A stretch of 64,000 nucleotides of DNA, from positions 1-64,000 of the forward strand of contig JAFDVO010000005.1 of assembly GCA_018268955.1 (NCBI GenBank), in the 5' to 3' direction. The DNA is from Acidobacteriota bacterium. Its GTDB lineage: Bacteria; Acidobacteriota; Vicinamibacteria; Vicinamibacterales; CAVVIG01. The notes below the pieces were generated by a model. The model worked only from the letters and a program-made list of their open reading frames with translations, was not told the origin of the DNA and ran no database searches. Position numbers and translations under genes: made by a program. Shown piece by piece: positions 9,044 through 24,969 of this stretch (within the stretch, counting starts at the first letter, position 1; each line of letters starts with the position of its first letter).

Positions 9044-9104
9044 GCGTATGCTCGTACTGCTAGATCAATCTTGGTTCCGACAACACCAGCGCGGGAGGTT
9101 CTCC

Positions 9105-9398: not shown

Positions 9399-9429
9399 AA
9401 CGTCCGTAAGCGTTGCGGAGGTGGCGGGC

Positions 9430-9726
9430 ATGCCTGAACGCCCGACGTACCGGCCCGTGTACAAGGCGCTCCATCGCCCCCTCACGATCTGGGGCGTCGA
9501 CAGGCGTCTGTTCTTCCTGTCCCTGCTACTCGGGGCGGCGACGTTCAACCTGTTCTACTCGTTCCTCGCCGGTCTGCTCATGGCCGGCGGGCTGTACGGG
9601 TTCGCCCTGTGGGCGACGGCACGCGACCCGGAGATGCTCCGCATTCTACTCGCTTCGTCGAAGGCGCGGAGACGATATGACCCCGCCAAGCACGATCGCC
9701 TGGACGTGGAGGTGATGCCGTGGTGA
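9430..9726 (+). CDS. trbD: VirB3/TrbD-like inner-membrane protein
   Basis: 98 aa. The ATG at 9430 has GGAGG 8 nt upstream; a GTG at 9421 is also in frame but overlaps that site. The protein has the short VirB3 form: a polar N-terminus (PVYKALHRPLTIWGVDRRLF), a hydrophobic hairpin (about 30-65) and a cytoplasmic tail. VirB3 anchors VirB4 at the inner membrane. Its stop overlaps the start of the VirB4 gene, as is usual for this pair. Confidence 0.85.
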   Translation: MPERPTYRPVYKALHRPLTIWGVDRRLFFLSLLLGAATFNLFYSFLAGLLMAGGLYGFALWATARDPEMLRILLASSKARRRYDPAKHDRLDVEVMPW

Positions 9727-12146
9727 GCATCGGCCGCATCCTTCGCGACTACCAGGACGCCGGGAGCGTGAACGGAATCCTGGCGCTGTGGGGCTTCGTC
9801 GACGACTCGACGTTCCTGACGAAGGCCGGCCATGTCGGCGTCGTCTATCGCCTCCGCGGCGTGGATTACGAAGGTCTGTCGCATCCGCAGCGCCAGGCGT
9901 TGGTGCACCGCTTCGAGGCTGCCCTTCGGTTGCTCGACGAGCACTGCCGCGTCTACCAGTACCTGCTGAAGCGCATGGTCGGGCCGTTTGTGGCCGCGGT
10001 GTGCGACGCGCCGGTCGCGAATGAGGCGATTCAGCGTCGGGCGGCGTACCTGAACGGCCGACGGCAGGACCTGTACGACCTCTCGCTCTACCTCGTGCTG
10101 CTCTACGAGGCGCCGCATGTCGCGAGACGGAGGACGGAACTGCGCCGGTTCTGGCAGGCGCCGCGCGAGGCCCTGCGGTCCTGGCTGTCGGTGGACCAGG
10201 CATTCCAGGTGCTCGAATCGGAGCTGGACCGGGCCATCGGCACGCTTCATCACAAGACGCAGGCGTTTGAGGTCCAGATTGGCGAGTTCGGCCCCACGCA
10301 GCTGAAGAGGGCTGACGCGTTCAGGTTCTTCCGCGAACTCCTGAACTACTCCCCGGCGGTGGTCGACGCCGCGCGGCTCGCGTACGACACGCACCTCGAC
10401 TACTTCGTCTCGGACTCGGCGGTGGACTGCCACCGGGATCATCTCGTCGTCGGCGACCGCCTGGTCAAGGTGCTGTCGATGAAGGAGCCGCCGAGCCAGA
10501 CGTTCGCGTTCCTGCTCCAGGACCTGTACGAGGTTCCGGGCGAGTTCATCGCCTGTCTGGAATGGCAGCGGATCCCCAGCGACCGCATGCGGCGGGACGT
10601 CCAGAGCCGTCGGCGCCACTTCTTCAACAAGCGGGTGTCCCTCGTGAACTACGTCTCGCCGGAGACGCGACCGGAGGAGATGCTGGTCGACGACTCGGCA
10701 AGCACCACGGTGAGGCAGTTGGGCGACGCCCTGACCGAGCTGGAGGTCAACGGCCACTTCTTCGGCCAGTGCTCCCTCGCGCTCGTGCTGCACGGCACCG
10801 ACGCTCGGGCCCTGCAGCACCAGACGGCCGAGGCCATGAAGGCGATGGCCGTGCACGACGGGAGCCTCTTCGAGGAGACGTACAACCTCCTGAACGCCTG
10901 GTTGAGCATCGTTCCCGGCAACGGCGCACACAACCTTCGACGGCTGGCACTGCTCGAGACGAACCTGGCGGACCTGAGCTTCCTGTTCACCCTCGATCAA
11001 GGCGAGGCCGTGAGCCCCCACCTGGGCAAGGAAGCGCTGGCCGTCTTCGAGACGCCCCATCGAACACCGTACGCCTTCAACCTCCACGTGCAGGATGTGG
11101 GGCATACCCTGGTCCTCGGGGCCACCGGGAGCGGCAAGAGCTTCGCGCTGAACTTCCTGATCACGCACGCGCAGAAGTACGCGCCGCAGACGGTGGTGCT
11201 GGACATCGGACACAGCTACCGAAAGCTCGCGACGCTCCTCGGTGGGCGCTACCTCGAACTGGGCCTGCGCCACCACGGGGTCACGATCAACCCGTTCGCT
11301 TTGGAGCCCACGCCGGAGCACCTTCACTTCCTGCACGCGTTCGTTCGCGTGCTGCTCGAGGGCGATGACGGGTACCGAATCGGCGACCTTGAGGACCGCG
11401 AAATCTATGAGGCGGTTGAGAACCTCTACGTGTTGGACCCGAGCCAGCACCGGCTGTTTACGTTCGCCAACCTGTTGCCGCGGGCGCTGGCCGCACGGTT
11501 GCACAAGTGGGTCGGCGAAGGCCGCTACGCCAGCCTCTTCGACAACCTCGAGGACACGCTGACGGTCGAACGGTTCCAGGTCTTCGACCTCGAAGCGATG
11601 CGGGCGTACCCGGTCCTGCTGGAGCCCCTGCTGTTCTACGTCCTGCACCGCGTCGTCGCCCGAATCCAGGACCCGAGCGAGGCGGCGGCATTCAAGCTGT
11701 GCGTGCTGGACGAGGCGTGGCGCTTCATCCAGCACCCGACGCTACGTGCCTACGTGCAGGAAGGGCTGAAGACCTGGCGGAAGCACAACGCCGCCATGGT
11801 TCTGGCGACTCAAACGGTCGACGACTTCGCGTCAGTGGATCTGTTGCGCACGATCGTCGAGAGCTGCCCGACGAAACTGCTGCTGGCGAACCCGGCGGTG
11901 GATCGCCGCCACTACGCCGAACTGTTCCAGCTCAACGAAATGGAACTGGACCTGCTGACCGGCTTGATTCCGCGCCAGCAGATTCTGCTCAAGCGTCCGG
12001 ACCTGGCTAAAGTCCTCACTTTGGTCGTGGACCAGAAGTCGTACTGGATCTACACCAACACTCCCATCGACAACGCGCGGGTCGCCGAGACGTTTCGCGA
12101 GTACGGCTTCGAGGCGGGTCTGGACCGCCTCGCGGCCTCTGCGTGA
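9720..12146 (+). CDS. trbE: VirB4/TrbE conjugation ATPase
   Basis: 808-aa ATPase that powers pilus assembly and substrate transfer at the inner membrane. The N-terminal CagE/TrbE domain spans about 1-400. Walker A is GATGSGKS at 467-474 and Walker B contains CVLDEAW near 660; further motifs include LATQTVDDF. The start is GTG, with a second GTG next to it, overlapping the VirB3 stop by 7 bp. Length and motif order match the family, with no sign of truncation. Confidence 0.95.
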   Translation: MVSIGRILRDYQDAGSVNGILALWGFVDDSTFLTKAGHVGVVYRLRGVDYEGLSHPQRQALVHRFEAALRLLDEHCRVYQYLLKRMVGPFVAAVCDAPVANEAIQRRAAYLNGRRQDLYDLSLYLVLLYEAPHVARRRTELRRFWQAPREALRSWLSVDQAFQVLESELDRAIGTLHHKTQAFEVQIGEFGPTQLKRADAFRFFRELLNYSPAVVDAARLAYDTHLDYFVSDSAVDCHRDHLVVGDRLVKVLSMKEPPSQTFAFLLQDLYEVPGEFIACLEWQRIPSDRMRRDVQSRRRHFFNKRVSLVNYVSPETRPEEMLVDDSASTTVRQLGDALTELEVNGHFFGQCSLALVLHGTDARALQHQTAEAMKAMAVHDGSLFEETYNLLNAWLSIVPGNGAHNLRRLALLETNLADLSFLFTLDQGEAVSPHLGKEALAVFETPHRTPYAFNLHVQDVGHTLVLGATGSGKSFALNFLITHAQKYAPQTVVLDIGHSYRKLATLLGGRYLELGLRHHGVTINPFALEPTPEHLHFLHAFVRVLLEGDDGYRIGDLEDREIYEAVENLYVLDPSQHRLFTFANLLPRALAARLHKWVGEGRYASLFDNLEDTLTVERFQVFDLEAMRAYPVLLEPLLFYVLHRVVARIQDPSEAAAFKLCVLDEAWRFIQHPTLRAYVQEGLKTWRKHNAAMVLATQTVDDFASVDLLRTIVESCPTKLLLANPAVDRRHYAELFQLNEMELDLLTGLIPRQQILLKRPDLAKVLTLVVDQKSYWIYTNTPIDNARVAETFREYGFEAGLDRLAASA

Positions 12147-12164
12147 ATTCATGGGAGGTGTCGC

Positions 12165-12947
12165 ATGCTCGGTCGAATCCTCGGTCCCGCACTGGCACTC
12201 GCAATCGTCGCGTCAGCCCCGGCCCCGGCGTCCGCGCAGGCCAACGGGACGGGCATCCGTGAGATCTCGGCGTCCGGTAGAAGCCTGATCACCCTCCAGA
12301 CGCGGATCCGCTACACGACCATGGTCCTTCTCCCGGACGGGGAAGAGATCCTCGACGTGATCTGCGGCGACAAGGACTTCTGGGTCATCACCGCGACGCA
12401 CAACATCGCGCACGTCAAGCCGGCGAAGCAAGGCGCTGCCACGAACCTGAATCTCGTGACATCGAGCGGCGCCGTCTACTCGTTCCTGCTGACCGAGAAG
12501 GGCGGTACCGGGATGCCCGACCTCAAGGTCTACGTGAACGCCGACCCGAGCGCGCCACAGGGCCAGCCGAAGTACTACAGCGCGGCGCAGGTCGACGACC
12601 TGAAGAGCGAGCTGGAGGAGGCCAAGGCGGCGGTCGAGGCCGCCAACCGGCAGGCGACCGAGGCCGTGGCCGCCTATCAGCAGGACTACCCGGCGAAGCT
12701 GCAGTTCCCGTATGGGGCACCGAAGTACGAGCGGCCGTTTCTGGTGCGCTCCATCTGGCACGACGGCCAGTTCACGTACATCAAGGCCGACGCGAAGGAG
12801 CTGCCGGCCCTCTACGAGATCAAGGACGGGAAGCCCTCGCTCCTGAACTTCCAGGTGCAGAACGGGACCTACGTCGTGCCGAAGGTGCTGGACCGCGGCT
12901 ACCTGTCACTCGGCAAGGAACGACTCGAGTTCCAGCAGGGTCGGTGA
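12165..12947 (+). CDS. trbG: VirB9/TrbG outer-membrane core protein
   Basis: 260 aa. The signal peptide ends near PASAQA. An N-terminal VirB9 domain starts with the IREISASGRSLITLQT region and contains VICGDKDFWVI, and the C-terminal beta-rich domain begins near 195 (RPFLVRSIWHDGQFTYIK). Together with VirB10 and a VirB7-like lipoprotein it would form the outer-membrane core ring. A GGGAGG ribosome site precedes the ATG. It lies between VirB4 and VirB10; in classic IncP trb operons trbF intervenes, so gene order is rearranged here. Confidence 0.9.
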   Translation: MLGRILGPALALAIVASAPAPASAQANGTGIREISASGRSLITLQTRIRYTTMVLLPDGEEILDVICGDKDFWVITATHNIAHVKPAKQGAATNLNLVTSSGAVYSFLLTEKGGTGMPDLKVYVNADPSAPQGQPKYYSAAQVDDLKSELEEAKAAVEAANRQATEAVAAYQQDYPAKLQFPYGAPKYERPFLVRSIWHDGQFTYIKADAKELPALYEIKDGKPSLLNFQVQNGTYVVPKVLDRGYLSLGKERLEFQQGR

Positions 12948-12950
12948 GCC

Positions 12951-14231
12951 ATGAGTGACGTCCCTTCGACCCCCGGCGCCCAACCAGACCCTGTGCCGCC
13001 TGCGGTCACCGACCGTCGGCCGGTGCCTCGCGGCGTGCTGCCTCGCGGCGTCCAGACGTGGATCATGGCCGGCGTTGCGGCCGGGATGCTCGCGATCATG
13101 CTGATCGTCGGTCGGCCGGACCCGCCGCCCCGCCCCGCGCAGGCCGCAGCCCCCGCACAGGCACCGAGCGCCGACCGAGTGCGCGACTATCAGGACCGTC
13201 TGCGGCTTCTGGAAGCCCAGGCCCTTCGCGAAGCGCAGACGGCAGCCGTGGCGCCGCCGGAGCCCACGCAATACGACGACACCGCACCTGCGCCCCAGGC
13301 ACAGGACCCGATTGCCGAAGAGCGGAAGCGCCGCGAGTACGAGAGCCTCTTCGCGAGCAACGTCGTGCTCAGCCGTCGCCCCGACAGCGAACGACCTGAC
13401 CAGGGATGGATCGGCGCGACGCCAGGCGGCACGGCGACGCAGACAGGCTCACCGAGCCCCTCCGTGGACGAAGTGGCTGACGCGGTCATTCGCGCGACGG
13501 CCAGGACCGCCAGCGCATTCGGAAGCGGCGCCCCCGCACCTCAGGCCGCTGCGGCACCCGTCGCGAGCGAGCCAAGGCCACTGGAACCCGCGGAGCGGCG
13601 CACACCGGACTACACGCCGCCAATTGGAGCGGCGGGACCGCTCTACCGCGTGCTTGAAGGCACCATCATCGACACCGTTCTCACCAACCGGCTGGACGGC
13701 GCGATGGCGGCGCCCGTGAACTGCCTGGTCACGAACGCGCTCTACTCGCACACGGGCCGCCACGTGCTCGTACCGGCGGGCGCGAGGATCCTCGGCGAGA
13801 CCAAGCCCGTGCAGGCGTTTGGCGAGACGCGCCTCGCCGTGTCCTTTCATCGATTGCTCATGCCGGACGGTCGCAGCTACCGCCTCGATCAGTTCATGGG
13901 CCTGAACCAGATCGGGGATGCCGGACTGCGCGACAAGGTCAACCACCACTTTCTCTCGACATTCGGCGCGGCTGCGGCCGTCGGCCTGATCAGTGGCCTC
14001 TCGCAGTATCTGGGAAGCGCCGGACTCGGGCGAGGCGACGGGGACCGGACGATTGTCATCGCAGGCGGCGTCGGCGATGCGACGTCTCAGGCCGCGATGC
14101 AGGTCATGAATCGATTTCTGAATCGGCTGCCCACGGTCACGATTCGGGAGGGACACCGGGTGAAGGTGTACCTCACGAGCGACATCGAACTGCCGGCGTA
14201 CTCCGGACCGGCCACCTCGAGTCGGTTCTGA
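12951..14231 (+). CDS. trbI: VirB10/TrbI core channel protein
   Basis: 426 aa. Cytoplasmic N-terminus, one transmembrane helix (about 36-54), a Pro/Ala-rich periplasmic linker (about 56-225) and the conserved TrbI beta-barrel domain (about 226-420) with VLEGTIIDTVLTNRLDG, VLVPAGARILGE and the antenna region AAAAVGLISGLSQYLGSAG. It spans inner and outer membranes and senses ATPase activity. The start lies 3 bp after the VirB9 stop, so the genes are cotranscribed. Confidence 0.94.
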   Translation: MSDVPSTPGAQPDPVPPAVTDRRPVPRGVLPRGVQTWIMAGVAAGMLAIMLIVGRPDPPPRPAQAAAPAQAPSADRVRDYQDRLRLLEAQALREAQTAAVAPPEPTQYDDTAPAPQAQDPIAEERKRREYESLFASNVVLSRRPDSERPDQGWIGATPGGTATQTGSPSPSVDEVADAVIRATARTASAFGSGAPAPQAAAAPVASEPRPLEPAERRTPDYTPPIGAAGPLYRVLEGTIIDTVLTNRLDGAMAAPVNCLVTNALYSHTGRHVLVPAGARILGETKPVQAFGETRLAVSFHRLLMPDGRSYRLDQFMGLNQIGDAGLRDKVNHHFLSTFGAAAAVGLISGLSQYLGSAGLGRGDGDRTIVIAGGVGDATSQAAMQVMNRFLNRLPTVTIREGHRVKVYLTSDIELPAYSGPATSSRF

Positions 14232-14245
14232 ACAGGGAGGATCCT

Positions 14246-15022
14246 ATGTGTCGCCGAGTCCTACTGCTCGCCATCGCACTGTGCACGCTCGCCGTGCCGG
14301 CCCATGCGCAGTTCGTCGTCATCGATCCCGCGAACCTCGTGCAGACGACGATGATCGCGTATCGCGTCCAGCAGCACTACACGGAGCTGCGGGCGCAATA
14401 CCTGACCGTGCTCCGGATGGCGCAGAGACTGGGGAGCCTCGATCGGTTCCGGACTCCTCCCATCGCCTTGACCTCGCACGATCCGTCCAGGTGGGACTTC
14501 GGACGGCCGTGGATTCAGGCGCTCAACAGCGGCGATCCGACCGGCTCGGCGTACTTCTCAACCGCGCTGCCGCTCCTGCGGCCGACGACCATGCCGCCGA
14601 CGCTGAGTGCAGCGGCCAGACAGATGCTGCAGCGGCAGTACGCCACCGTTGAGATCACCGACTCGGTGGCCACGATGGGCGGCCATCAGGTCGCCCTGGC
14701 GCGCGGCTACCACGACCAGCTCCAGAACGCCGTGGAATCCCTGCAGAGCGACGTACTGAACCCCGGCTCGCAGTACCACGAGATGACCGCCATTCTCGAC
14801 AAGATCGCCGCTGGCGAGCTCCTGGGGCGCCGGCAGGACATGCTCTCGAACCAGCTCCTGTCGCACGCGCTTGAGCAACTGCTGGCACGCGGAAAACGGC
14901 TGCGGGACACGGAAGCCGCGACGATCAACATGCAGCTCGTCACGTGGCGGGATGCGCGCGCCGCGAACGACGCGTTCGTCGCCGGCACCGGCGACGCGCT
15001 TCGGACGTGGCGTCAGCCATAG
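14246..15022 (+). CDS. trbJ: TrbJ/VirB5-like minor pilus protein, copy 1
   Basis: 258 aa. A signal peptide ends near VPAHAQ, followed by FVVIDPANLVQTTMIA, which resembles the DPANL start of mature TrbJ/VirB5 proteins; the rest is mostly helical. The last about 50 residues (ATINMQLVTWRDARAAND, then AGTGDALRTWRQP) are nearly identical to the product of the next gene. VirB5-type proteins sit at the pilus tip and help contact recipients. A clear GGGAGG precedes the start. The family call rests on position, signal peptide and the N-terminal motif. Confidence 0.75.
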   Translation: MCRRVLLLAIALCTLAVPAHAQFVVIDPANLVQTTMIAYRVQQHYTELRAQYLTVLRMAQRLGSLDRFRTPPIALTSHDPSRWDFGRPWIQALNSGDPTGSAYFSTALPLLRPTTMPPTLSAAARQMLQRQYATVEITDSVATMGGHQVALARGYHDQLQNAVESLQSDVLNPGSQYHEMTAILDKIAAGELLGRRQDMLSNQLLSHALEQLLARGKRLRDTEAATINMQLVTWRDARAANDAFVAGTGDALRTWRQP

Positions 15023-15049
15023 GCCTCGGTCCAGGGACTGGAGGACACC

Positions 15050-15832
15050 ATGCGACGACTGCTCCTTGGGCTCATCGGCGTCGCCCTCGCTGCACAACCG
15101 GCGCGAGCGCAGTTGTCGGTGTATGACCCGGCGAACACAGCCCGGAACACCATCTCGGCGATCTATCAGCAGTACCTGCTCGAGACGGAACGGGCGCAGC
15201 ACGCCAAGCTCTGGGCGATGGCCCGGCGCCTCAGCGCCTTTGCCGATCTGCGCCGATATGCCCTCCTCGATGTGCCCCGCTGGCGCACACACGGCGGCGA
15301 CTTCCTCTACGCCAACGGCATCAACGACGCCCTCATCTTCGGAGATCCGCGCGGGGCAGCGTACCTGGCCGTAAGCCACCCCGTCCTGAGCGCGCGGACC
15401 CTGCTCGGACGGCTCACGCCGGCGGCGCAGCGGGCACTGATGAGCCGTCTGGCGACTGTGGAGCTGGCCGATGCCGTGGCGATGTCAGCCATCAACGATA
15501 CGGGGTCGCTGCGCCTGAACGGCCGCCGGCAGGAGCTGCAGGCCATCGACGCGCTCGAGGCCCAGGTCATCGACCCGTCCCTCGAACAGAGTGCCACGGC
15601 GGTGCTCGACAAGATCAGCGGGTCGGTGCTCCTCGGTGCCCGACAGCGCCAGGCTCGGAGCCAGCTCCTGACCGCGTTCGTGGAGCAGCTGCTGGTCGAC
15701 TCGAAGCGGGCGCGGGACGTCGATGCGGCCGCGATGAACATGCAACTCGTGACGTGGCGCGACAGCCGCGCGGCGAACGCCGCGTTTGTCGCCGGCACGG
15801 GCGACGCGCTGCGCACCTGGAGACAGCCGTAA
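15050..15832 (+). CDS. TrbJ/VirB5-like minor pilus protein, copy 2
   Basis: 260 aa, tandem paralogue of the upstream gene. It has the same layout: signal peptide ending near PARAQ, then LSVYDPANTARNTISAIYQ, a helical middle and the shared C-terminus (MNMQLVTWRDSRAAN, AGTGDALRTWRQP). The N-terminal and central parts have diverged strongly, while the tail is conserved. Such a pair could form a hetero-oligomeric pilus tip, or one copy may have taken on a new adhesin role; this is inference. Confidence 0.72.
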   Translation: MRRLLLGLIGVALAAQPARAQLSVYDPANTARNTISAIYQQYLLETERAQHAKLWAMARRLSAFADLRRYALLDVPRWRTHGGDFLYANGINDALIFGDPRGAAYLAVSHPVLSARTLLGRLTPAAQRALMSRLATVELADAVAMSAINDTGSLRLNGRRQELQAIDALEAQVIDPSLEQSATAVLDKISGSVLLGARQRQARSQLLTAFVEQLLVDSKRARDVDAAAMNMQLVTWRDSRAANAAFVAGTGDALRTWRQP

Positions 15833-15850
15833 GCCGTCCGGAGGCCCGTC

Positions 15851-16684
15851 GTGCAGCTCAATCTCTTGCCCACAATTCAGCAGGCGATCGCGAACCTCCT
15901 GACAGTGTATGAGCCCGAGTTCCTCCGCTTCGGGTACAGCCTCTTCCTGTCATTCGCGACCATCCTGATCGTGTGGCAGGGCGTCAAGATGATGTTCTCG
16001 CACGACAGCCTCGGCGACTCGATGTTCGACTTCGCGAAGCTGCTGATGCTGATCTCGTTCGGCTATGCCTTCATCACGTTCTACGAGGCGCCGCTGCCCG
16101 GCATCGGGGTGTCGTTCAGCAACCTCATCACCGACCAGACCGGCTACTTCCAGAGCGTCCTGGAGGCCCGAGCGTTCGACAACGTCTACCGCCACTTCGA
16201 CGAGCTATCGGACCACTTCCTGCAGCCCGATGCGTGGTCGATTCTGGCGAACCTGATCTACTGGGCGATGCTGCTGCTCATCGCCTTGGCAAAGGGTCTG
16301 TCGCTCGCCGTCATCGCCTTTGGGCTGATAGCCAGCGCGGTGTGCGGGCTCCTGGGTCCGATCTTCGTGCCGTTCTTCATCGTGCCCAAGCTGGAGTGGC
16401 TCTTCTGGGGCTGGTTGAAGTCGTTCATCCAGTACTCGTTCGTCCCTGTTGTGGCCATCGCGTTCCTGATGATCTTCGAGCAGTTCGTCTTCCGCTACGT
16501 GACGACGCTCCCGCCAACGATCACGTCGGCGGAATACGGCGTGTATGGCCTTCAAGCGGTCGCCGTGGTGGTGACCTTCTGTATCGGAATCGCGCTTGTG
16601 CCCTCGCTGACGAGTTCGATCTTTTCCGGACAGGGCGGGCAGAGCATCCTCTCCTCGGTACCGCGTTTGATCCGGATGCGTTGA
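15851..16684 (+). CDS. trbL: VirB6/TrbL polytopic inner-membrane protein
   Basis: 277 aa, GTG start with GGAGG upstream. There are several hydrophobic segments: around 25-45, 55-75, 130-180 (AMLLLIALAKGLSLAVIAFG) and 190-260, with the WLKSFIQYSFVPVVAIAF stretch typical of TrbL/VirB6. It forms part of the inner-membrane translocation channel. It is shorter than IncP TrbL, but its position between the TrbJ-like genes and VirB8 supports the call. Confidence 0.88.
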   Translation: MQLNLLPTIQQAIANLLTVYEPEFLRFGYSLFLSFATILIVWQGVKMMFSHDSLGDSMFDFAKLLMLISFGYAFITFYEAPLPGIGVSFSNLITDQTGYFQSVLEARAFDNVYRHFDELSDHFLQPDAWSILANLIYWAMLLLIALAKGLSLAVIAFGLIASAVCGLLGPIFVPFFIVPKLEWLFWGWLKSFIQYSFVPVVAIAFLMIFEQFVFRYVTTLPPTITSAEYGVYGLQAVAVVVTFCIGIALVPSLTSSIFSGQGGQSILSSVPRLIRMR

Positions 16685-16695
16685 AGGAACACCTT

Positions 16696-16872
16696 ATGCC
16701 ACGCCGATTCCAGCCGCCCGTTCCAGACCATCTGCGCGAGCCTCACGAGGTCAATGTCCCTGGCCTGTGGAACGTCTACATCCTCGGTATCGGCATTGCC
16801 ATCCTCCTGGGCCTCGTCGGCGGTTCGCTATGGATCGCGTGGCGACTTCTGGCGACCCGCTTTGTGGACTGA
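16696..16872 (+). CDS. Small single-pass membrane protein in the trb operon
   Basis: 58 aa from the ATG at 16696, with a purine-rich site (GAAGGA) upstream. The polar N-terminus (RRFQPPVPDHLREPHEVNVP) is followed by one transmembrane helix (VYILGIGIAILLGLVGGSLW). There is no lipobox, so it is not a VirB7 lipoprotein. It lies tightly between VirB6 and VirB8 (11-bp and 12-bp gaps) and is probably a minor inner-membrane component of the secretion machine. Family not recognised. Confidence 0.65.
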   Translation: MPRRFQPPVPDHLREPHEVNVPGLWNVYILGIGIAILLGLVGGSLWIAWRLLATRFVD

Positions 16873-16884
16873 GAGGAGTGCACC

Positions 16885-17595
16885 ATGGGCGCGACAACGG
16901 CGGACCTGAACCCCAAGACGATGGAAGGCGCGAAGCGCCAGTTCGTGGAGCTGTACGGGTCTGCGCTGGTCACCAACACCTACCTCCGAATCGCGCTGGC
17001 ACTTGTCTCCATCGTGGCCGTTGGCCTGGTCGGGCTCAACGTCTACACCGTGACGCGGTACTCGCAGGTCAAGCCGCTGGTCATCCGGATCGACGACGTC
17101 GGTAGAGCCGAGGCGGTGCAGTACGACGCCACGAGCTACCAGCCGCAGCCACCCGAACTCCGCTACTTCCTCACGCAGTTCGTCGTCAAACACTTCAGCC
17201 GGTTGCGCGCCACGGTGCAGCGCGAGTATCCCGATTCTCTCCTCTTCCTGGAGCCGAGCCTCGCGGACGCCACGATCGCTCAGAACGAGCAGAGCCGGAC
17301 CATCGAAACGTTCATGACCAACCCGTCCGCCGACGAAGTGGACATCGTCGTCCAGAACGTCAGCCTGACGGAGTTGGCGCAGGCGCCGCACAAGGCGTCC
17401 GTCAGCTTTCAGAAGCTCCTGTACGCCCCGGGAACGCGACAGGAACGCGCCCGCCAGACGTTCATCGCGCAGATCGATTTCGCCCTCAGGGACCGGGTTC
17501 CGAACGAGTTCGTTCGCGTCAACCCGCTCGGCCTCCAAATCTCGTACTTCCGCGTGGACCAGGCCTTCGAGGAGGGGCAGCCCAATGGTCGCTAA
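16885..17595 (+). CDS. trbF: VirB8/TrbF inner-membrane assembly factor
   Basis: 236 aa. A cytoplasmic N-terminus (KRQFVELYGSALVTNTYLR) is followed by one transmembrane helix (about 36-56) and a periplasmic NTF2-like domain. The motifs KPLVIRIDDVGRAE, YFLTQFV and the C-terminal NPLGLQISYFRVDQAF are characteristic of TrbF. VirB8 nucleates assembly of the secretion complex. The start has a GAGAGG site, and the 3' end overlaps the next gene by 11 bp. Confidence 0.92.
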   Translation: MGATTADLNPKTMEGAKRQFVELYGSALVTNTYLRIALALVSIVAVGLVGLNVYTVTRYSQVKPLVIRIDDVGRAEAVQYDATSYQPQPPELRYFLTQFVVKHFSRLRATVQREYPDSLLFLEPSLADATIAQNEQSRTIETFMTNPSADEVDIVVQNVSLTELAQAPHKASVSFQKLLYAPGTRQERARQTFIAQIDFALRDRVPNEFVRVNPLGLQISYFRVDQAFEEGQPNGR

Positions 17596-17875
17596 CGTCG
17601 CCTTCCTTGCGGCCCTGACGACATTCCTTGCCGTCGCGTGGCTGGCCGGCGAGCTGTCGTTCCTTGCGCCTTTTAAGGCGGGGATCTTCCGCAATCACGG
17701 GGTCACGATTGGCGTCGCGATCACGGTCCTGTTCCTGAATCTGTGTGCCGCGTACTACGGCATCGCACGCTGGCTGTTCCTGCGCGACGCCGGGCGCAAG
17801 CTCGCGCACATGGACCAGCAGCTCGGGTCGCGGGACGCCGTGCTCGGCGACCTTCACAAGGACTTCACGCCGTAA
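17585..17875 (+). CDS. Small two-helix membrane protein
   Basis: 96 aa overlapping the end of the VirB8 gene. Two hydrophobic helices are visible (about 3-30 and 38-65), followed by a charged amphipathic tail (DAGRKLAHMDQQLGSRDAVL). No signal cleavage site or lipobox is seen. Position and coupling suggest an accessory membrane part of the transfer system; no known Trb protein is recognised. Confidence 0.65.
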   Translation: MVANVAFLAALTTFLAVAWLAGELSFLAPFKAGIFRNHGVTIGVAITVLFLNLCAAYYGIARWLFLRDAGRKLAHMDQQLGSRDAVLGDLHKDFTP

Positions 17876-17887
17876 GGACTGTGACGC

Positions 17888-18811
17888 ATGTGGCGCGACA
17901 TCGACCCTCGTGACGACGAGCGCGGGCGGCCCGACCTGAGCCGAGGAGGTGCCGGACGGGCCGACGACGGCGCGTCCAAACCCGTCGAGGGCGGAGATGC
18001 GCTGACGCGCGATCTGGACCTGCCACGCGGCCGCACGCGCCGGCCCGTAAGGGACCGCGATCGCTGGATCGATCTGCGCGAGTCCGAGGTCCGGATGCTG
18101 GCCACGGCGGGCTCGTTTCGGGTGGTCGTCGCCTCGGACCTTCGAGACCACCGCGGCCGTCCCGCCAGCGCCCGGAACGGCGAGCTGAGAGGCCTTCGCG
18201 AGGCAGGGCTCGTGGAGACAAGGCCTTACCTCATCGGTCGCGAACGAGCGACCCTCGTGACCTTGACGGATCGCGGTCGTGAGCTGCTGGAGAGGCATCG
18301 CAGGACCGACCCCGATCGCGTGCCGCAAACCTACTACGCCGGCTTCGTGAAGCCGCGAGAACTGTCGCATGACGCCCAGCTCTATCGCGCCTACGAACGG
18401 TCGGCCGAGCGGCTCAAGGACACGGGCGCGAGGGTCACACGGGTCGTGCTCGACTACGAGCTGAAGCGAGACTACCAGCGGTTCCTCCACGATCTGAAAC
18501 GGGAGCGACGCGGGCAGGAACAGGACGCCGACCGCCACGCCGCGGACATCGCGGCGTGGGCGGCCAGCCGTGACCTTCCCGTCGTCGACGGCCATGTTCA
18601 TTTTCCCGACGTTCGCATCGAGTACGAACGGCCGGACGGCGATCGGAAGGTCGAGGACATCGAGGTCGTGACGCCCCACTACCGCGGGGCCTACGCCGCC
18701 GCGAAGGGGCGCGCCGGCTTCAGCGCCTATCGCATCAGCACCGGGCTCGGAGGCCGCGGCGGGCGGTCCGGGCGCAGTCCCAATCCCCGGATCTTCGACG
18801 AGTTCCTATGA
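17888..18811 (+). CDS. Winged-helix protein with PD-(D/E)xK-like C-terminus; candidate relaxation protein
   Basis: 307 aa. A charged disordered N-terminus (1-58) leads into a winged-helix region (about 62-135: RESEVRMLATAGSF, LRGLREAGLVETR, LTDRGRELL). A helical segment with ELSHDAQLYRAYE follows (158-170), and then a domain with HFPDVRIEY (238-246), EDIEVV (256-261) and a Lys at 273 that fits a PD-(D/E)xK nuclease pattern. This layout resembles replication-relaxation family proteins of other mobile elements; that comparison is by pattern only. It sits between the secretion genes and the coupling protein, where a relaxase would be expected, and overlaps the next gene by 4 bp. No HUH motif is present. 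Confidence 0.6.
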   Translation: MWRDIDPRDDERGRPDLSRGGAGRADDGASKPVEGGDALTRDLDLPRGRTRRPVRDRDRWIDLRESEVRMLATAGSFRVVVASDLRDHRGRPASARNGELRGLREAGLVETRPYLIGRERATLVTLTDRGRELLERHRRTDPDRVPQTYYAGFVKPRELSHDAQLYRAYERSAERLKDTGARVTRVVLDYELKRDYQRFLHDLKRERRGQEQDADRHAADIAAWAASRDLPVVDGHVHFPDVRIEYERPDGDRKVEDIEVVTPHYRGAYAAAKGRAGFSAYRISTGLGGRGGRSGRSPNPRIFDEFL

Positions 18812-19809
18812 CGCACGAGGAGCGCATCAAACGGGTCGCCGCCTTCGGCTTCACTGACCGCCAGGCTGCCTTCCTGGTCGAGGTGATGCTCCACTCCGGC
18901 TTCTTTCTGGGCCGTCAGTACTGCGCGTTTGCCCGCATCGTCCGCGGACAGAAGATGGTCGACTTCCTCGAGAAGCTGACCAGCCGAAGGCTCGCCACAC
19001 CCTACCTGTGCGGACACAGCAAGGCTCGCGTCTACCACCTGCACAACACGTCGCTCTACGACGCCATCGAGCAGCGAGATGTGCGCTTCCGCAAGCGCAT
19101 GGCGCTCGGCCGGGCACTCGAGCGGCTGATGATCCTCGACCACGTTCTCACGTATCGAGACTTCCACTGGCTCGGTTCGGAGGAGGACAAAGTCGCGCAC
19201 TTTCTCACGACGACGTCTTTGGACCGTGACGCACTGCCGCGTCTGACCTTCGGCGTGGAGCCCAACATCACGGTACGGCACTTTCCCGACAAGCTGCCCA
19301 TTGGCGTGTCCCCAGACGGTCGGAGGCACGCCTTTCTCTACCTCCTGGTGAACCCGCTGCCGCATGACTTCCGCGTGTTCCTCCGTAGGCATGCGGAACT
19401 GTTGCGCGCGTTACCGGCGTGGTCGATCCAACTGCTGGTGCCGATCGACCAGCCCGACCCAGAGGGCCGGGCGCAACGCCTTGCCGAGCACTACGAGAGC
19501 GCCTTCAGACAGGAGCTCGCCGCGCCACTGGATCCCGTCACGGCCAACGAGCTGCGCTGGTTCTGGGAGGCGCGCACGCTGGGGACGGGCGTCGCTGAGG
19601 ACAAACGCCTGCGACGAGCGCGGCGCCTGTTCGGGACGCCCCGATTCCGAGCGCTACGCCGTGTGTTGGAAGTCGATGGACACCGCGCCGTCGATGTCGC
19701 CGCCTCGAGAAGCCTCGCGGACGCCATCGAGCGCGCAGAGGGCCGGATTGAACGTCATGAGATTCGCCGCCAGTACTTTCGTTTGTCTCGCGCGGTCGGC
19801 ACGGCCTGA
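18808..19809 (+). CDS. Second winged-helix protein of the putative relaxation pair
   Basis: 333 aa, translationally coupled (ATGA) to the preceding gene. The N-terminal winged helix spans about 12-85 (FTDRQAAFLVEVMLHSG, MVDFLEKLTSRRLATPY, ARVYHLHN). The middle has HFPDKLPIGVSPDGRRHAFLY, which lines up with the nuclease-like core of its neighbour, but acidic and Lys catalytic residues are not evident. The C-terminal third is helical and Arg-rich. It may be a catalytically dead partner that binds DNA in a hetero-complex. No known family is recognised with confidence, and it stands immediately before a 450-bp region rich in inverted repeats. Confidence 0.55.
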   Translation: MTHEERIKRVAAFGFTDRQAAFLVEVMLHSGFFLGRQYCAFARIVRGQKMVDFLEKLTSRRLATPYLCGHSKARVYHLHNTSLYDAIEQRDVRFRKRMALGRALERLMILDHVLTYRDFHWLGSEEDKVAHFLTTTSLDRDALPRLTFGVEPNITVRHFPDKLPIGVSPDGRRHAFLYLLVNPLPHDFRVFLRRHAELLRALPAWSIQLLVPIDQPDPEGRAQRLAEHYESAFRQELAAPLDPVTANELRWFWEARTLGTGVAEDKRLRRARRLFGTPRFRALRRVLEVDGHRAVDVAASRSLADAIERAEGRIERHEIRRQYFRLSRAVGTA

Positions 19810-19817
19810 GTCGCGAG

Positions 19818-19864
19818 GGGGGAACACCGGGGGGGAACAGGACCCTCGCGCGAGGTGTTCCCCC
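19818..19864. repeat. Inverted repeat with G-tracts and central palindrome
   Basis: The arm GGGGGAACACC at 19818-19828 is matched by its exact complement at 19854-19864. Inside, at about 19831-19839, GGGGGAACA occurs again as a direct repeat, and the 12-bp palindrome CCTCGCGCGAGG spans 19844-19855. It may act as a transcription terminator after the upstream gene or as a protein-binding array; there is no T-tract on the plus strand. Confidence 0.7.
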
Positions 19865-20032
19865 TTGGCGTGCGGCCGAGCCGCTGGCCCCGCCACTTCC
19901 TGGTGGTGCGCTCCCTGTCAGTGGTCGTCGGCTAAGCCCTTGCCCCGAAGGAGGTTACGGATGCCCAGAACGGGCGGCGTTCTCTGCCGCCCGCTGGCTG
20001 CCGGCAGCCGAGCGACGGGATCACTGAGGGAA

Positions 20033-20110
20033 CCGTGGCGTGAGCGACCACGCTTTTGCACCGCTCGCGCTGCCAAGCCTGCGGCCAGCGCGTGGTCGCT
20101 CACGCCACGG
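20033..20110. repeat. 21-bp perfect inverted repeat
   Basis: The left arm at 20033-20053 and right arm at 20090-20110 are exact complements over 21 bp, separated by a 36-nt spacer that itself contains a smaller dyad (GCGCTG at 20067 and CAGCGC at 20086). A perfect 21-bp repeat is far beyond chance at this scale and implies a selected DNA or RNA structure. Its place in front of the RHH-like gene suits a relaxosome or operator site. Confidence 0.85.
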
Positions 20111-20259
20111 CCGCCCATAACCGTCGAGTTTCATCTGCAGCGAGATCCGCGGGTGGTCACCACCGCGGAAATGTCGCTGCATTCTGCCGCGATTCTGCCG
20201 CGCTCAGTGCCGTGGAACCAGCGGGCGATGTGTTCGCATTAGCCCCTGCAGGAGGAACC

Positions 20260-20577
20260 ATGCCGCTCATCAAACCGCGCACCCGTGGCAAGCAGTTGGT
20301 CCGTCGGATCGTCAGGTTCGATCGCGAAACGAACGAGACGCTGTTTGCCTACGCGCATTTCCTCGGTGAGTCCACAGATTACGTGCTCAACGAGGTCATC
20401 GACACTGTCCTGGCCAAGGACAAGGAGTTTCTGGCCTGGCGTGCCGAGAACCGCACGTCGTTCGTGCCGCCGCAACCGGCCAACCAGCCGGTCAGAAAGC
20501 GCCGTTCCAAGCGCCGCGCCGATTCGCAGCCGTCTACACCGGAGGCCGCCAGCGCGCCGTCGGCCGCGCTCGCCTGA
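20260..20577 (+). CDS. Small RHH-like DNA-binding protein, candidate relaxosome accessory factor
   Basis: 105 aa. The ATG at 20260 has an ideal GGAGG site; a longer in-frame ORF from 20056 would run through the inverted repeat and is rejected. The core KQLVRRIVRFDRETNETLFA, then LGESTDYVLNEVI, looks like a beta strand plus two helices of a ribbon-helix-helix protein, followed by a basic, Pro/Ser-rich tail (RKRRSKRRA). RHH proteins such as MobC or TraJ relatives bind transfer origins. It is immediately upstream of the VirD4 gene and next to the repeat-rich gap, which supports such a role. Confidence 0.62.
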   Translation: MPLIKPRTRGKQLVRRIVRFDRETNETLFAYAHFLGESTDYVLNEVIDTVLAKDKEFLAWRAENRTSFVPPQPANQPVRKRRSKRRADSQPSTPEAASAPSAALA

Positions 20578-20602
20578 TGGGCGGGTAGGAGGGTAGGCCA
20601 CC

Positions 20603-22594
20603 GTGATCCGGATGTTGGTGGAACAACGCGTCGTCGTCGCGATGCTGATCGCTCTGGGTGTGGGCGCCGCTGGTGTCCACGCCTATCCGGTCGATCGGGG
20701 CAACGTGTACCTGCAAATCATCGAACTGCGGAATCCCGCCGCGTTCCTGGTGCTGGTGTACGGCTACGCCACGCTCTGGTTCACGACGCCGTTCTTCGCA
20801 GCATCGATGCTCGGTTCGCTCACGACCATCGTCGCGTACCGTCGACCTGCTCGCGCCAAACAGCGTTCGCTGCCGGCCTACGTCGCACCGGAACGGCGAC
20901 CGGCACCCACGCTCGTGCTCGGGGAGAGTCATCTCGAAACGATGAGCGGACGCGCACCGCAGCCCTCGTGGCTGACGATTCCTCAGCGCGGGCTCTACAC
21001 GGGCGTCATGGTGATCGGTGCCGTTGGAACAGGCAAAACATCCGCGTGCATGTTCCCGTACACCGACCAACTCCTCCGCTGGAAGGCGAGCGATCCGGAG
21101 CGCAAGATTGGCGGCCTTGTCCTCGAAGTCAAGGGCGACTTCTGCCAGCAGGTACACGGGATGCTCACCCGTGCCGGACGTGCCTCGGACTACACCGAGA
21201 TCCGCCTCGGCGGCGACATCTGCTACAACCCGCTCCACAACGACCTAGACCCGTATGCTGTCGCCTATGCGGTCTCGACGCTAGTCAACAACCTGTTCGG
21301 TAAGTCCAAAGAGCCGTTCTGGCAGCAGGCGTACACGGATCTCCTCAAGTTCGTCATCCTGCTTCGGCGCCTTGCGGACGGCTACACGACCCTCGCCGAG
21401 GTGTATCGGTACGTCCTCGAAGACGGAAAGATTGAGGCAGAGATCACCAAGCTGAAGGCCGCGCTGAGTCAGCCGCCGGAAGTGGTCGTCGTACCGCTCG
21501 CGAACTACGAGCTTCAAGATCTGGCGACCGCGGGCTGGAGGGACTGGTTCCAGGAAGGTCCAGAGCACATGGCGCGGCAGTACAGCGCCGACCTCGAATC
21601 ACATCTGCAGGAGCACAAGATTCCCTACGAGGTACGCAGAACCAAGGGGACCGCGTGGCTTGATCGGAAGCATCAGATCGAAGCGGTGGACCGATGGTTT
21701 ACGTACGGCTGGAAACGACTCGACAATCGTCTGCGGTCCTCGATCACAGAAGGCATCGTCGTTTTCCTCTCGCTGTTTGACGAGAATCCAGCCGTTCACC
21801 GGACGTTCTGCCCTCCACGAAGCGTTTACGCCAGCACGCCGAAACCGGGAGAACCGAAGCCCCTTCCTCCGCTGGAAGAGCTGCTCGAATCGGGCCATGT
21901 GCTGGCGCTTAACTTTCCAGTCGGTCTGAACCCCGGGCTTGCGCGCGCCGTGGGCGTGATGTTGAAGCTGGATTTCCAGCGCGCAGTCATCCAGCGCATC
22001 CCGAAGATCACGGCGCACCCTGAGCGGATCTGGCGCGATCTGCTCTTCGTGTGCGACGAATATCACGCGTTCGCGACCGTCGGCGAAACCGACCCGACCG
22101 GCGACGAGCGAACCTTCGCGCTGTCACGCCAGGCACGGCTCATTCCCATCGTCGCGACTCAGAGCGTCAGCTCGCTTCGCTCCGCGCTTCCCGGTGACGA
22201 GAGTTGGCGCACGTTGCTCCAGTGCTTCCGGACCAAGTTGTTCCTCGCGACCAGCGACGAATTCACGGCGCGAGCGGCGGCGGATTTGTGCGGTCGGCGC
22301 GACCGTCTCAAGGCCCACTACACGCTGTCCGAAGGCGGCCAGGGCGCACATATCTCCCTGCTGACGGGCAGGGCAACCGCCGCAAGGCAAACGGTGAGCG
22401 CGAGCAAGAGCTATGCGCCGCATCACGAGTACATCTTCTCGCCGCGTGTCTTCACCGAGTTGCAGAACGGGCAGGCCATTGCGTTGCCGTACGACGGCCT
22501 CAACCCGATGCCTCCGCAGTTCTGCTACCTGAAGCCGCACTACCTCGACGTCCAGACGAGCTACTTCGACCATGTCGCACGGGGGCAGTTGTGA
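20603..22594 (+). CDS. traG: VirD4/TraG type IV coupling protein
   Basis: 663 aa, GTG start. Two N-terminal transmembrane helices (about 9-27 and 48-78), then the AAA-type motor with Walker A GAVGTGKT at 139-146 and Walker B LLFVCDEYHAF near 475. The motif VATQSVSSLRSAL is a family signature. It recruits the DNA-protein complex to the secretion channel. Its stop overlaps the VirB11 start by 4 bp. Length and motif order are as expected for TraG proteins. Confidence 0.94.
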   Translation: MIRMLVEQRVVVAMLIALGVGAAGVHAYPVDRGNVYLQIIELRNPAAFLVLVYGYATLWFTTPFFAASMLGSLTTIVAYRRPARAKQRSLPAYVAPERRPAPTLVLGESHLETMSGRAPQPSWLTIPQRGLYTGVMVIGAVGTGKTSACMFPYTDQLLRWKASDPERKIGGLVLEVKGDFCQQVHGMLTRAGRASDYTEIRLGGDICYNPLHNDLDPYAVAYAVSTLVNNLFGKSKEPFWQQAYTDLLKFVILLRRLADGYTTLAEVYRYVLEDGKIEAEITKLKAALSQPPEVVVVPLANYELQDLATAGWRDWFQEGPEHMARQYSADLESHLQEHKIPYEVRRTKGTAWLDRKHQIEAVDRWFTYGWKRLDNRLRSSITEGIVVFLSLFDENPAVHRTFCPPRSVYASTPKPGEPKPLPPLEELLESGHVLALNFPVGLNPGLARAVGVMLKLDFQRAVIQRIPKITAHPERIWRDLLFVCDEYHAFATVGETDPTGDERTFALSRQARLIPIVATQSVSSLRSALPGDESWRTLLQCFRTKLFLATSDEFTARAAADLCGRRDRLKAHYTLSEGGQGAHISLLTGRATAARQTVSASKSYAPHHEYIFSPRVFTELQNGQAIALPYDGLNPMPPQFCYLKPHYLDVQTSYFDHVARGQL

Positions 22595-23592
22595 GCAGCC
22601 TTGATCGGATTCTGCCGTTCCTGAAACCGATCGAGGATCTCCTCTGTGATCCGACGATCACCGAGGTCATGGTCAACGACGGAGGTCGGCACATCTTCGT
22701 GGAGCGCGACGGCACCATCGAGGCTGTGCCCGACCGAACCCTCGAAACGCGAAACCTGACGGTCGCGATCAAGAACATCGCACGGGCGTGCGGCGACGAG
22801 ATTTCCGACGCACAGCCGCTTCTGGATGCACGACTCGAGGACGGCTCCCGTGTGGCGGCGATGTTCCCGCCCTGCGCCGTGGCGGGTCCGGTCCTGACCA
22901 TCCGGAAGTTCACACGCCGCTATAGCCTCGACGATCTCGTTGCGATCGCTTCGCTGACTGCTGCAACCGCGAGGGAACTGACCTGCGCCATCGCGACTGA
23001 GCAGAACGTCCTGATCTCTGGCGGTACCGGTACTGGCAAGACCACGCTACTCAACGCGCTGGCCGCGCACATTCCCGATCACGATCGCATTGTCCTGATC
23101 GAAGAGACCGCAGAGATTCATCTGAACAAACCGAACGTGGTTCGACTCGAAGCACGACGTGCGCAGCCACCGCTCGGCCAGGAGGCGCCGCTGCCTCCAG
23201 TCACGATAGCGGACCTCCTTCGTGCGGCCCTGCGGCATCGGCCCGATCGCATCCTGGTTGGTGAGGTCCGTGGCGCGGAAGCGTTCGACCTGCTGCAAGC
23301 GCTGAACACCGGACACCTCGGCAGTCTCAGCACCATCCACGCGAACTCCGCAGAACAGGCCCTCACACGTCTGGCGCACTGTGTGCTGACAGCGAACGTG
23401 GGTCTGCCGCACCGGAGTATCCGCGAAGCCATCGGATTGGCGATTCATCTCGTCGTACACATCGGTCGAATTGGCGGACACCGTCGCGTGACACAAGTCG
23501 CGGCAGTCCGCGGTTACGACGTTCCAAGCGATCGGTTCCTGCTTGAATCGCGGCTGCTGGACGATCCGGTGCCGCAGGGAGCCTTGTCATGA
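22591..23592 (+). CDS. trbB: VirB11/TrbB secretion ATPase
   Basis: 333 aa when started at the GTG at 22591 (GTGA overlap with the coupling protein); a longer in-frame ORF from 22204 lies inside that gene and is rejected. The N-terminal domain (1-110) is followed by the RecA-like ATPase domain with Walker A GGTGTGKT at 144-151, the Asp box ILIEETAEI-type region, and LVGEVRGAEAFDLLQALNTG with the HLGSLSTIHANS His box. This hexameric ATPase switches between pilus assembly and DNA transfer. Its stop overlaps the following lipoprotein start. Confidence 0.94.
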   Translation: MSSLDRILPFLKPIEDLLCDPTITEVMVNDGGRHIFVERDGTIEAVPDRTLETRNLTVAIKNIARACGDEISDAQPLLDARLEDGSRVAAMFPPCAVAGPVLTIRKFTRRYSLDDLVAIASLTAATARELTCAIATEQNVLISGGTGTGKTTLLNALAAHIPDHDRIVLIEETAEIHLNKPNVVRLEARRAQPPLGQEAPLPPVTIADLLRAALRHRPDRILVGEVRGAEAFDLLQALNTGHLGSLSTIHANSAEQALTRLAHCVLTANVGLPHRSIREAIGLAIHLVVHIGRIGGHRRVTQVAAVRGYDVPSDRFLLESRLLDDPVPQGALS

Positions 23593-24068
23593 GACCGCTC
23601 TTCCGTCAGTTACCTGTCTTGCTCCTGATCCTTCCACTGGCCGCGTGCGGAGGCGGCGGCTCCGCGCCGACCTCACCGACGCCGGCGCAGTCGTTCCTCG
23701 CCGGCACATGGCGAGGCACCATGACGATTCAGCCGAATCCCACAGGCCCGCAGCCTGGTGCCCCGGTCAGCGGCACCGTGACCTGGACCTTCGAGGTGGT
23801 CCCGCAGACGAATCTGCAGGCTTTCCGTACCACCATCCGCTCCGAGAACAGCTGGCTGCCGATCACCCTGACTTCATCGACGTCGATGATTCCGTCCAAC
23901 ACGCCGCCAGCCCAGATCAGCACACAGGGCGAGTACGACTCCCCACGCGGGTGCCGTGGAACATTCGGGAGTTTCGCCACGGCCGAGGCCCGCAGCATTC
24001 AGGGCAGCATCACCGGGGTCGATTGCCCTGTGCCCTTCACCGGATCGGTCACCCTCACGAAGGAGTGA
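23589..24068 (+). CDS. Lipoprotein coupled to VirB11
   Basis: 159 aa. A lipoprotein signal with lipobox LAAC (Cys at about 20) is followed by a Gly/Ser/Pro linker and a beta-rich domain (GTWRGTMTI, GTVTWTFEV, SITGVDCPVPFTGSVTLT). Two Cys residues near 122 and 147 could form a disulfide. The start overlaps the VirB11 stop (ATGA). It might take the VirB7/TrbH role in the outer-membrane core, which otherwise has no candidate in this operon, but it is longer than typical VirB7. Confidence 0.75.
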   Translation: MRPLFRQLPVLLLILPLAACGGGGSAPTSPTPAQSFLAGTWRGTMTIQPNPTGPQPGAPVSGTVTWTFEVVPQTNLQAFRTTIRSENSWLPITLTSSTSMIPSNTPPAQISTQGEYDSPRGCRGTFGSFATAEARSIQGSITGVDCPVPFTGSVTLTKE

Positions 24069-24072
24069 CAAA

Positions 24073-24969
24073 GTGGAATCGATCGACCAGTGCGCGCCGA
24101 TTCGTTTCCTCGAAGCAGCCTTCGCCCCCGACGACTCGATCGGCGTGCTGCTGAAGACCTATCGCACGGGCCAGGTCATTCAGCGGATCGTGCCTGTCAA
24201 AGCTGCGATCAGCGACCGATTTCAGGCGTGGCTTCGTTACATGAACGCGCACGGCTGGAATGTGTACGTCGGCGTGAATGCCTATCGGCCCGGGCGATCG
24301 CGCGCTCGCGAAGCGGTGACCCAAGTGCGGCATCTGTTCCTCGAGGAGGACCTTGACGGTCCAGGACTGCTCGCCGTCCTGTCCACGCGATCGGACCTTC
24401 CTCCGCCATCGTACGTGCTGCATTCGTCGCCCGGTCGGCTACACGTGCTATGGCGCGTCCGGGACATCTCGCCCTCACGAGTCGAGCAGTTGCAGAAGCA
24501 ACTCGCGCGAGAACTGCTGACCGATCGCGCTGCAACATCGTGCACGCAGACCACGAGATTGCCGGGACTTTTCAATCACAAGCGACGGCCATCGGTTCGT
24601 GTCGGCATTGAGTACCTCCACTGGCGAGATGTCTTCGTGGCGGGGGATCTGCCTGCCGTCGGTGCTGCGACACTTCCGTCGAGCGTTCCCAGGGTGCGGC
24701 GACCGTTGCCTGCCGCGCGCTCAGTGGAGCGCGCACGCGCATTTCTCCGGCGCGTCGATCCCGCTGTCGCCGGACAGCAGGGCGATCTACAGACGTTTCG
24801 TGTCTGCTGTCGAGTCGTGCGCGGATTTGATCTCTCAGACGACGAGGCGGAGCGCGCGCTAAGCGACTGGAATGCGCGATGCGAGCCGCCGTGGTCGGAA
24901 CGCGAGCTGCGACAGAAGGTTACGAACGCGAGGAGGTACGGGCGCGAGCCTCAGGGTGGTCTTCTGTGA
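24073..24969 (+). CDS. RepB-like DNA primase of the mobile element
   Basis: 298 aa from the GTG at 24073, which has AAGGAG 7 nt upstream; the longer ORF from 23956 overlaps the lipoprotein gene. The core NVYVGVNAYRP, then LFLEEDLDGPGL, VLHSSPGRLHVLWRV, QTTRLPGLFNHKR matches the RepB/archaeo-eukaryotic primase fold, with the acidic pair and the HVLWR strand. The C-terminal helical part (about 230-298, SDDEAERALSDWNARCEPPW) resembles primase C-terminal modules. It probably primes complementary-strand synthesis after transfer. It is the last gene of the transfer operon. Confidence 0.8.
   Translation: MESIDQCAPIRFLEAAFAPDDSIGVLLKTYRTGQVIQRIVPVKAAISDRFQAWLRYMNAHGWNVYVGVNAYRPGRSRAREAVTQVRHLFLEEDLDGPGLLAVLSTRSDLPPPSYVLHSSPGRLHVLWRVRDISPSRVEQLQKQLARELLTDRAATSCTQTTRLPGLFNHKRRPSVRVGIEYLHWRDVFVAGDLPAVGAATLPSSVPRVRRPLPAARSVERARAFLRRVDPAVAGQQGDLQTFRVCCRVVRGFDLSDDEAERALSDWNARCEPPWSERELRQKVTNARRYGREPQGGLL

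Follow-up and report, generated by a model that had tools for sequence, protein, structure and literature searches.

A winged-helix protein pair and a conserved inverted repeat as a candidate relaxosome of Acidobacteriota conjugative elements

Introduction

How would an integrative and conjugative element (ICE) that carries secretion genes, a coupling protein and a primase, but no recognisable relaxase, process its DNA for transfer? The question is raised by a 64,000-nucleotide stretch of the genome of an Acidobacteriota bacterium from the order Vicinamibacterales (GenBank assembly GCA_018268955.1, contig JAFDVO010000005.1, positions 1-64,000 of the forward strand). This stretch, hereafter the window, forms the start of a 190-kb contig, and the assembly amounts to 4.77 Mb and is 99.5% complete. 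Between the type IV secretion system (T4SS) operon and the gene of a VirD4-type coupling protein lie two coupled genes, the products of which are here designated P1 and P2, followed by a spaced inverted repeat. The analysis presented here indicates that P1 and P2 are probably the relaxosome core of the ICE, acting on the repeat as the origin of transfer (oriT).

For almost half of the chromosomal T4SSs, no relaxase was reported at the same locus, and undetected relaxase types are one of three reasons proposed for such relaxase-less systems (Guglielmini et al. 2011, PMC3158045). The ICE in the window resembles these "MOBless" systems in that it is a chromosomal T4SS without a recognisable relaxase, and differs in that a candidate relaxase and a candidate oriT can be named for one such group. 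The features that carry the argument are as follows.

17888..18811, + strand: P1, 307 amino acids, a real open reading frame (ORF)
P1 residues ~58-147: winged helix; residues 148-285: PD-(D/E)xK-like domain (from the AlphaFold2 model and conservation)
18808..19809, + strand: P2, 333 amino acids, a real ORF
19971..19993, no strand: short hairpin CGGGCGGCGTTCTCTGCCGCCCG, proposed part of the oriT, conserved while the flanks diverge
20033..20053, no strand: left arm (core GGCGTGAGCGACC) of a perfect inverted repeat with 21-bp arms, proposed as the recognition site of the oriT
20054..20089, no strand: 36-nt spacer with CTGCCAAGCCTGCGGCCA, common to oriT-only satellites, candidate nic region
20090..20110, no strand: right arm (core GGTCGCTCACGCC) of this repeat

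Results

Absence of the tested classical relaxases

The P1 and P2 genes share a 4-bp ATGA overlap, and a 450-bp gap (19810-20259) separates P2 from a small ORF at 20260-20577. An earlier note on this DNA had described the pair as two coupled genes within a transfer operon that has secretion genes, a coupling protein and a primase but no classical relaxase. The ORFs are indeed as described, and Pfam searches confirmed VirB2, VirB4, VirB5 (two copies), VirB6, VirB8, VirB9, VirB10, VirB11, the VirD4-type coupling protein and a RepB-type primase, with VirB3 assigned from gene position only. As the element may extend leftwards beyond the start of the contig, and so of the window, the search for relaxases was run on the whole genome. 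Profile searches with PF03432, PF08751, PF03389, PF07514, PF02486 and PF13814 gave zero matches across the assembly. The MOBP, MOBQ, MOBF, MOBT and MOBH profiles (PF03432, PF03389, PF08751, PF02486 and PF07514) did match in control genomes; the PF13814 profile was silent in its own controls, but scored above the cut-off in 17 other Acidobacteriota genomes. The MOBV profile (PF01076) had no match in the assembly, yet its control gave none either. Among tyrosine-recombinase-type proteins, only the ordinary integrase of a second element was noticed. For the six families listed first, the absence of a relaxase therefore extends to the rest of the genome, where the earlier note had left room for one.

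P1 has a winged helix and a nuclease-like core

The MOBC relaxases consist of an N-terminal winged helix and a PD-(D/E)xK domain (PMC12857230) and share the residues Asp148, Glu161-x-Glu163 and Lys167 (A3 numbering). In the AlphaFold2 model of P1, which has a predicted local distance difference test score (pLDDT) of 82, the elements of the second domain are ordered helix, strand, strand, strand, helix, strand, as in PD-(D/E)xK enzymes. Pro240-Asp241 stands directly before the second strand (242-247) of the model, and Glu259 lies within the third (253-261). Eight residues, His161, Asp162, Pro240, Asp241, Glu259, Tyr265, Gly277 and Phe278, are invariant in 37/37 relatives, and residue 257 is either Asp or Asn among them. 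Lys273 is present in all 21 T4SS-linked sequences but only in 5 of the 16 others; with this distribution it does not qualify as an invariant residue of the active site. The winged helix and the PD-(D/E)xK-like core that had been read from the sequence are thus borne out by a profile match (see below), the model topology and the invariant Asp241 and Glu259. Of the individual residues named earlier, Pro240-Asp241, Glu259 and Lys273 are in place, but the supposed ExE at 256-259 reads Glu256-Asp257-Ile258-Glu259, and Lys273 varies. We propose P1 as the catalytic subunit of the relaxase.

P2, a probable Replic_Relax-like protein without active-site acids

The AlphaFold2 model of P2 has a pLDDT of 89, and its best Foldseek match in the BFVD is gp146 of phage G (268 columns, E 1.5e-5, probability 1.00), a protein that matches Pfam Replic_Relax (E=4e-25) and belongs to phrog_9381 of PHROG, "replication initiation by nicking". 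Bacillus phage G gp146 and SPO1 gp27.3 represent the best full-length structural match of P2, and belong to Pfam Replic_Relax; unlike P2, gp146 is a phage protein with intact PD...ExD residues, and no pairing with a second protein is known for it from this analysis. Across 47 sequences, the P2 positions 177 and 179, equivalent to the ExE of MOBC, are hydrophobic, Asp161 is found in only 27, the PD is not conserved, and none of the MOBC active-site acids is kept as an invariant residue, which agrees with the earlier description of P2 as a partner that lost its catalytic residues. Instead, Arg95 and Asp111 are invariant, and Arg106 and Lys128 are nearly so. P2 therefore appears to have a Replic_Relax-like fold without the active-site acids, and is proposed as the oriT-binding partner. 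That both proteins might be plain transcription factors is not what the models suggest, given the likeness of P2 to gp146 and the nuclease topology of P1.

P1 and P2 as probable distant relatives of MOBC

Searches of Pfam, NCBIfam, PHROG and PDB sequences with P1 and P2 gave weak winged-helix matches or nothing. When P1 was compared by hhalign with the single pAM373 relaxase and with a small A3 profile, the winged helix alone aligned, and deeper profiles were therefore needed. The MOBC/Replic_Relax profile was built from a trusted set of 30, an iterated profile having been dropped after it drifted to winged-helix fragments, and intact relatives of the CloDF13 MobC were used, as the CloDF13 record itself has a broken mobC; MobC of this type matches Pfam Replic_Relax with E=1e-21. 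In profile-profile comparisons, the winged helix of P1 matched that of MOBC/Replic_Relax with P ~1e-9, none of 200 column shuffles scoring as high. The winged helix of P2 matched with P=1e-5, and full-length P2 with P=1.5e-4 over 159 columns that include the PD region, again with 0/200 column shuffles as high. The earlier note had considered the likeness to replication-relaxation proteins to be by pattern only; the gp146 match of P2 and the P1 winged helix say more than that. Compared directly with each other, P1 and P2 have little sequence similarity.

The N-terminal winged helix of MOBC is consequently seen in both proteins by profiles and structure, and the full-length Replic_Relax fold in P2 by its match to gp146. 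In common with the MOBC relaxases (TraX of pAD1/pAM373, MobC of CloDF13), the pair has a winged helix, a PD-(D/E)xK-like core and no HUH motif, and is encoded next to a VirD4-type coupling protein. In contrast, neither protein matches the Pfam Replic_Relax model (PF13814), the D...ExE...K active site is found in neither of them, P1 included, and for these reasons they are not filed as MOBC members. The system further differs in its obligate-looking second, catalytically empty homologue and in its candidate oriT, which is an inverted repeat with a spacer instead of the direct repeats bound by TraX (PMC12857230). The pair is best explained as distant relatives of MOBC (Pfam Replic_Relax), a common fold being well supported for P2 and moderately so for P1. 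On the sequences and models, the simplest reading is that P1 and P2 would be the active and the inactive member of one fold, and by analogy they probably work like MOBC. The earlier idea of an undescribed DNA-processing module accordingly holds in so far as the gap contains a candidate site, but the architecture is already known from MOBC.

Distribution of the pair

Relatives of P1 occur in 31 and those of P2 in 37 of 396 Acidobacteriota genomes. Both are present in 23/23 T4SS clusters examined, mostly adjacent, although the clusters were found via P1 or P2, so that this count says nothing on the frequency of T4SSs without the pair. In one lineage, P2 lies beside the coupling protein and P1 beside virB2. 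The pair is also found at loci that have no T4SS genes within ~10 kb on each side, several of them adjoining a large serine recombinase (our loci L040, L168, L171, L177, L178, L190 and L216). A tblastn search of the plasmid collection with P1 gave no match, and none of the papers found on Acidobacteriota conjugation describes P1 or P2.

Farther along the contig (64001-104000, L032-L033) lies another complete T4SS element of this family, with its own P1, P2 and repeat and a tyrosine integrase. No relaxase was found among its other large ORFs, which include the integrase and SLFN, PIN and UvrD proteins.

A conserved inverted repeat downstream of P2

The gap after P2 had been called repeat-rich, and the repeats are real, but the key conserved one had been overlooked. 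The sequence CCGTGGCGTGAGCGACCACGC at 20033-20053 has its complement at 20090-20110. The window contains no other perfect inverted repeat of >=18 bp (spacer 5-100), and the conservation of this one downstream of P2 is new in this analysis. Immediately behind P2 (19817-19870), the gap also contains direct and inverted copies of GGGGGGAACA, found likewise in the closest relative. An Rfam search of 17500-21000 gave no match. In related elements with otherwise diverged intergenic DNA, the inverted repeat and the hairpin are what stays conserved, the hairpin, ~40 bp upstream of the repeat, being kept in related ICEs and in oriT-only satellites alike.

Of the 23 T4SS elements, 22 carry such a repeat downstream of P2, the exception being L172, and it is also present in most T4SS-less and P2-only loci, usually <=400 bp from P2. 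Complementarity was imposed over 8 bp only in the detection of the repeat, and the four positions flanking these 8 bp are complementary in 33/33 unique loci, with 2-3 pair types each. Since the arms covary outside the imposed 8 bp, it is the symmetry that is kept, and not just a sequence. A pattern search of 149 whole genomes of the order found the repeat in 31 and a reversed control in 0; among 42 genomes of known P1/P2 status, the repeat is present in 15/20 carriers and 0/22 non-carriers (p=1.6e-7).

Several copies of the repeat lie away from P1, P2 and T4SS genes. Such repeat-only loci are found near a large serine recombinase (L205, L207, L209, L212 and L214, the last of which also holds a P2 fragment ~10 kb away) or a tyrosine integrase (L204 and L210). 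The spacers of L205, L206, L207 and L209 specifically match the ICE of the window and its close relative; for L204 and L212 the spacer match is to another ICE, which resides in the same genome as L204. The literature defines compatible pairs by an oriT that helper and hitcher have in common, and it recognises islands with an oriT alone as a class (PMC11389934); as in the iMOB and iOriT hitchers described there, which share the oriT of their helper with or without a relaxase of their own, the candidate cis site here is carried with the candidate relaxase, without it, and without a T4SS. Judged from sequence, the repeat and hairpin thus have the expected signature of an oriT shared by helper, iMOB and iOriT elements.

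Other genes of the element

The remaining features of the window are listed below.

8943..17875, + strand: T4SS operon virB2, (B3), B4, B9, B10, B5, B5, B6, B8, orf96 (Pfam)
20260..20577, + strand: small conserved protein, RHH-like according to the earlier note, possible relaxosome auxiliary (gene conservation)
20603..22594, + strand: VirD4-type coupling protein (TrwB_AAD_bind 1.2e-8, TraG-D_C 4e-8)
22567..23592, + strand: VirB11 ATPase (T2SSE 2.4e-46)
23956..24969, + strand: RepB-type primase (RepB_primase 1.4e-16)
30368..31909, + strand: large serine recombinase, 3' end overlapping tRNA-Gln (31847-31920)

The gene of the small, putatively ribbon-helix-helix (RHH) protein is kept beside the coupling protein in related ICEs; a Pfam search of the product gave no match. 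The tRNA-Gln gene overlapped by the recombinase is a likely attachment site at the right end of the element. Within the T4SS operon, two tandem VirB5-like (DUF4141) paralogues (14246-15832) are ~42% identical, and the pair is kept in most related ICEs. On the opposite strand, positions 6-7632 hold a row of defence-like cargo genes that encode a DUF1156 methyltransferase, an SLFN/AlbA protein and an SNF2/NOV_C helicase.

Discussion

The results are consistent with a model in which P1 and P2 both descend from the Replic_Relax/MOBC fold of a winged helix and a PD-(D/E)xK-like core. P2, its catalytic acids lost, would most likely bind the inverted repeat downstream of its own gene as the bind site of the oriT, and P1, with Asp241 and Glu259 kept, would most likely make a strand-specific, metal-dependent nick in or beside the repeat, after which the complex could move on to the coupling protein and the VirB T4SS. 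By carrying this repeat, integrative and mobilizable elements (IMEs) that encode P1 and P2 but no T4SS, as well as oriT-only islands, would be able to ride in trans. We infer from these comparisons the activities of P1 (nicking) and P2 (binding), the location of nic and a role in conjugation. A similar organisation is known from SGI1, where MpsA and MpsB are a bicistronic atypical relaxase and a partner without a catalytic domain, and the GC-rich oriT with inverted repeats adjoins their genes (PMC6414798); MpsA, however, is a tyrosine-recombinase-like enzyme of unrelated fold.

Several observations weigh against this model. The nuclease core of P1 matches MOBC weakly, with a score of 18.6 (P=0.014) in an alignment on the PD motif that is just above 200 column shuffles, none of which reached it. 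P1 is without the second Glu of the ExE and the Lys at +6, both invariant in MOBC, and Lys273 is lost in most (11/16) of the T4SS-less P1 sequences. Foldseek and VIA searches of the PDB with both models returned only MarR/PadR/ArsR-like winged-helix matches that barely cover the nuclease parts, and the best viral match of the P1 model, by structure only, is a 274-residue protein of Bacillus phage JL. P2 with the inverted repeat is found without P1 at L152, L157, L179 and L211, and P1 is absent from the searched genomes of the first two. The silent MOBV control and the way in which the T4SS clusters were collected, both given above, belong here as well.

An alternative that we regard as improbable is that P1 and P2 form the replication initiator, a nickase, of the excised circle, with the repeat as its double-strand origin and transfer carried out by another, unseen relaxase. 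The annotation of the phage Replic_Relax relatives would fit this, and an origin of this kind could serve satellites in trans as well; however, the tested relaxase families are absent from the genome, and the repeat adjoins the coupling protein in the ICEs. Moreover, in known ICEs, such as ICEBs1, the relaxase serves both transfer and replication, so this alternative overlaps with the relaxosome model.

Less credible still is that P1 and P2 are winged-helix regulators and the repeat an operator for transfer or recombinase genes, borrowed by satellites to sense the helper. The winged-helix parts are structurally MarR/PadR-like, and the repeat lies ~0.5-1.2 kb upstream of the recombinase gene in satellites and IMEs, but P1 has its invariant PD...E core in a nuclease topology, P2 matches a Replic_Relax protein rather than a repressor over its full length, and the long spaced arms come with a conserved spacer and hairpin. 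Hundreds of bp separate the repeat from the recombinase start, and in ICEs it lies far from the recombinase. The operator reading is ranked low because the repeat persists without the coupling-protein operon and far from recombinase starts, and the helper-specific spacers together with the repeat in T4SS-less loci likewise argue for a cis-acting transfer origin over an operator of that operon. Finally, that P2 itself acts as the relaxase through a new set of catalytic residues (Arg95, Arg106, Asp111 and Lys128), P1 being an auxiliary, is the least probable: P2 nearly always adjoins the repeat, also where P1 is missing, and these residues are conserved, but its ExE equivalents are hydrophobic, its PD is not conserved, and all 23 T4SS elements examined keep a P1 with invariant acids.

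Returning to the relaxosome model, we lean on balance towards the broader view that P1 and P2 represent a relaxase family that has so far escaped recognition: two PD-(D/E)xK/Replic_Relax homologues, one active and one dead, would work as an obligate pair on a spaced inverted-repeat oriT, serve elements of the conjugative, relaxase-carrying and oriT-only kinds throughout Acidobacteriota, and stand behind a group of the MOBless T4SSs. This suggests that many T4SSs "without a relaxase" may have one that standard searches miss. One MOBless group gains a candidate relaxase pair, a candidate oriT and matching hitchhikers, which makes the question directly testable, and, if the model is true, the conjugative, mobilizable and oriT-only elements of Acidobacteriota would become recognisable from sequence.

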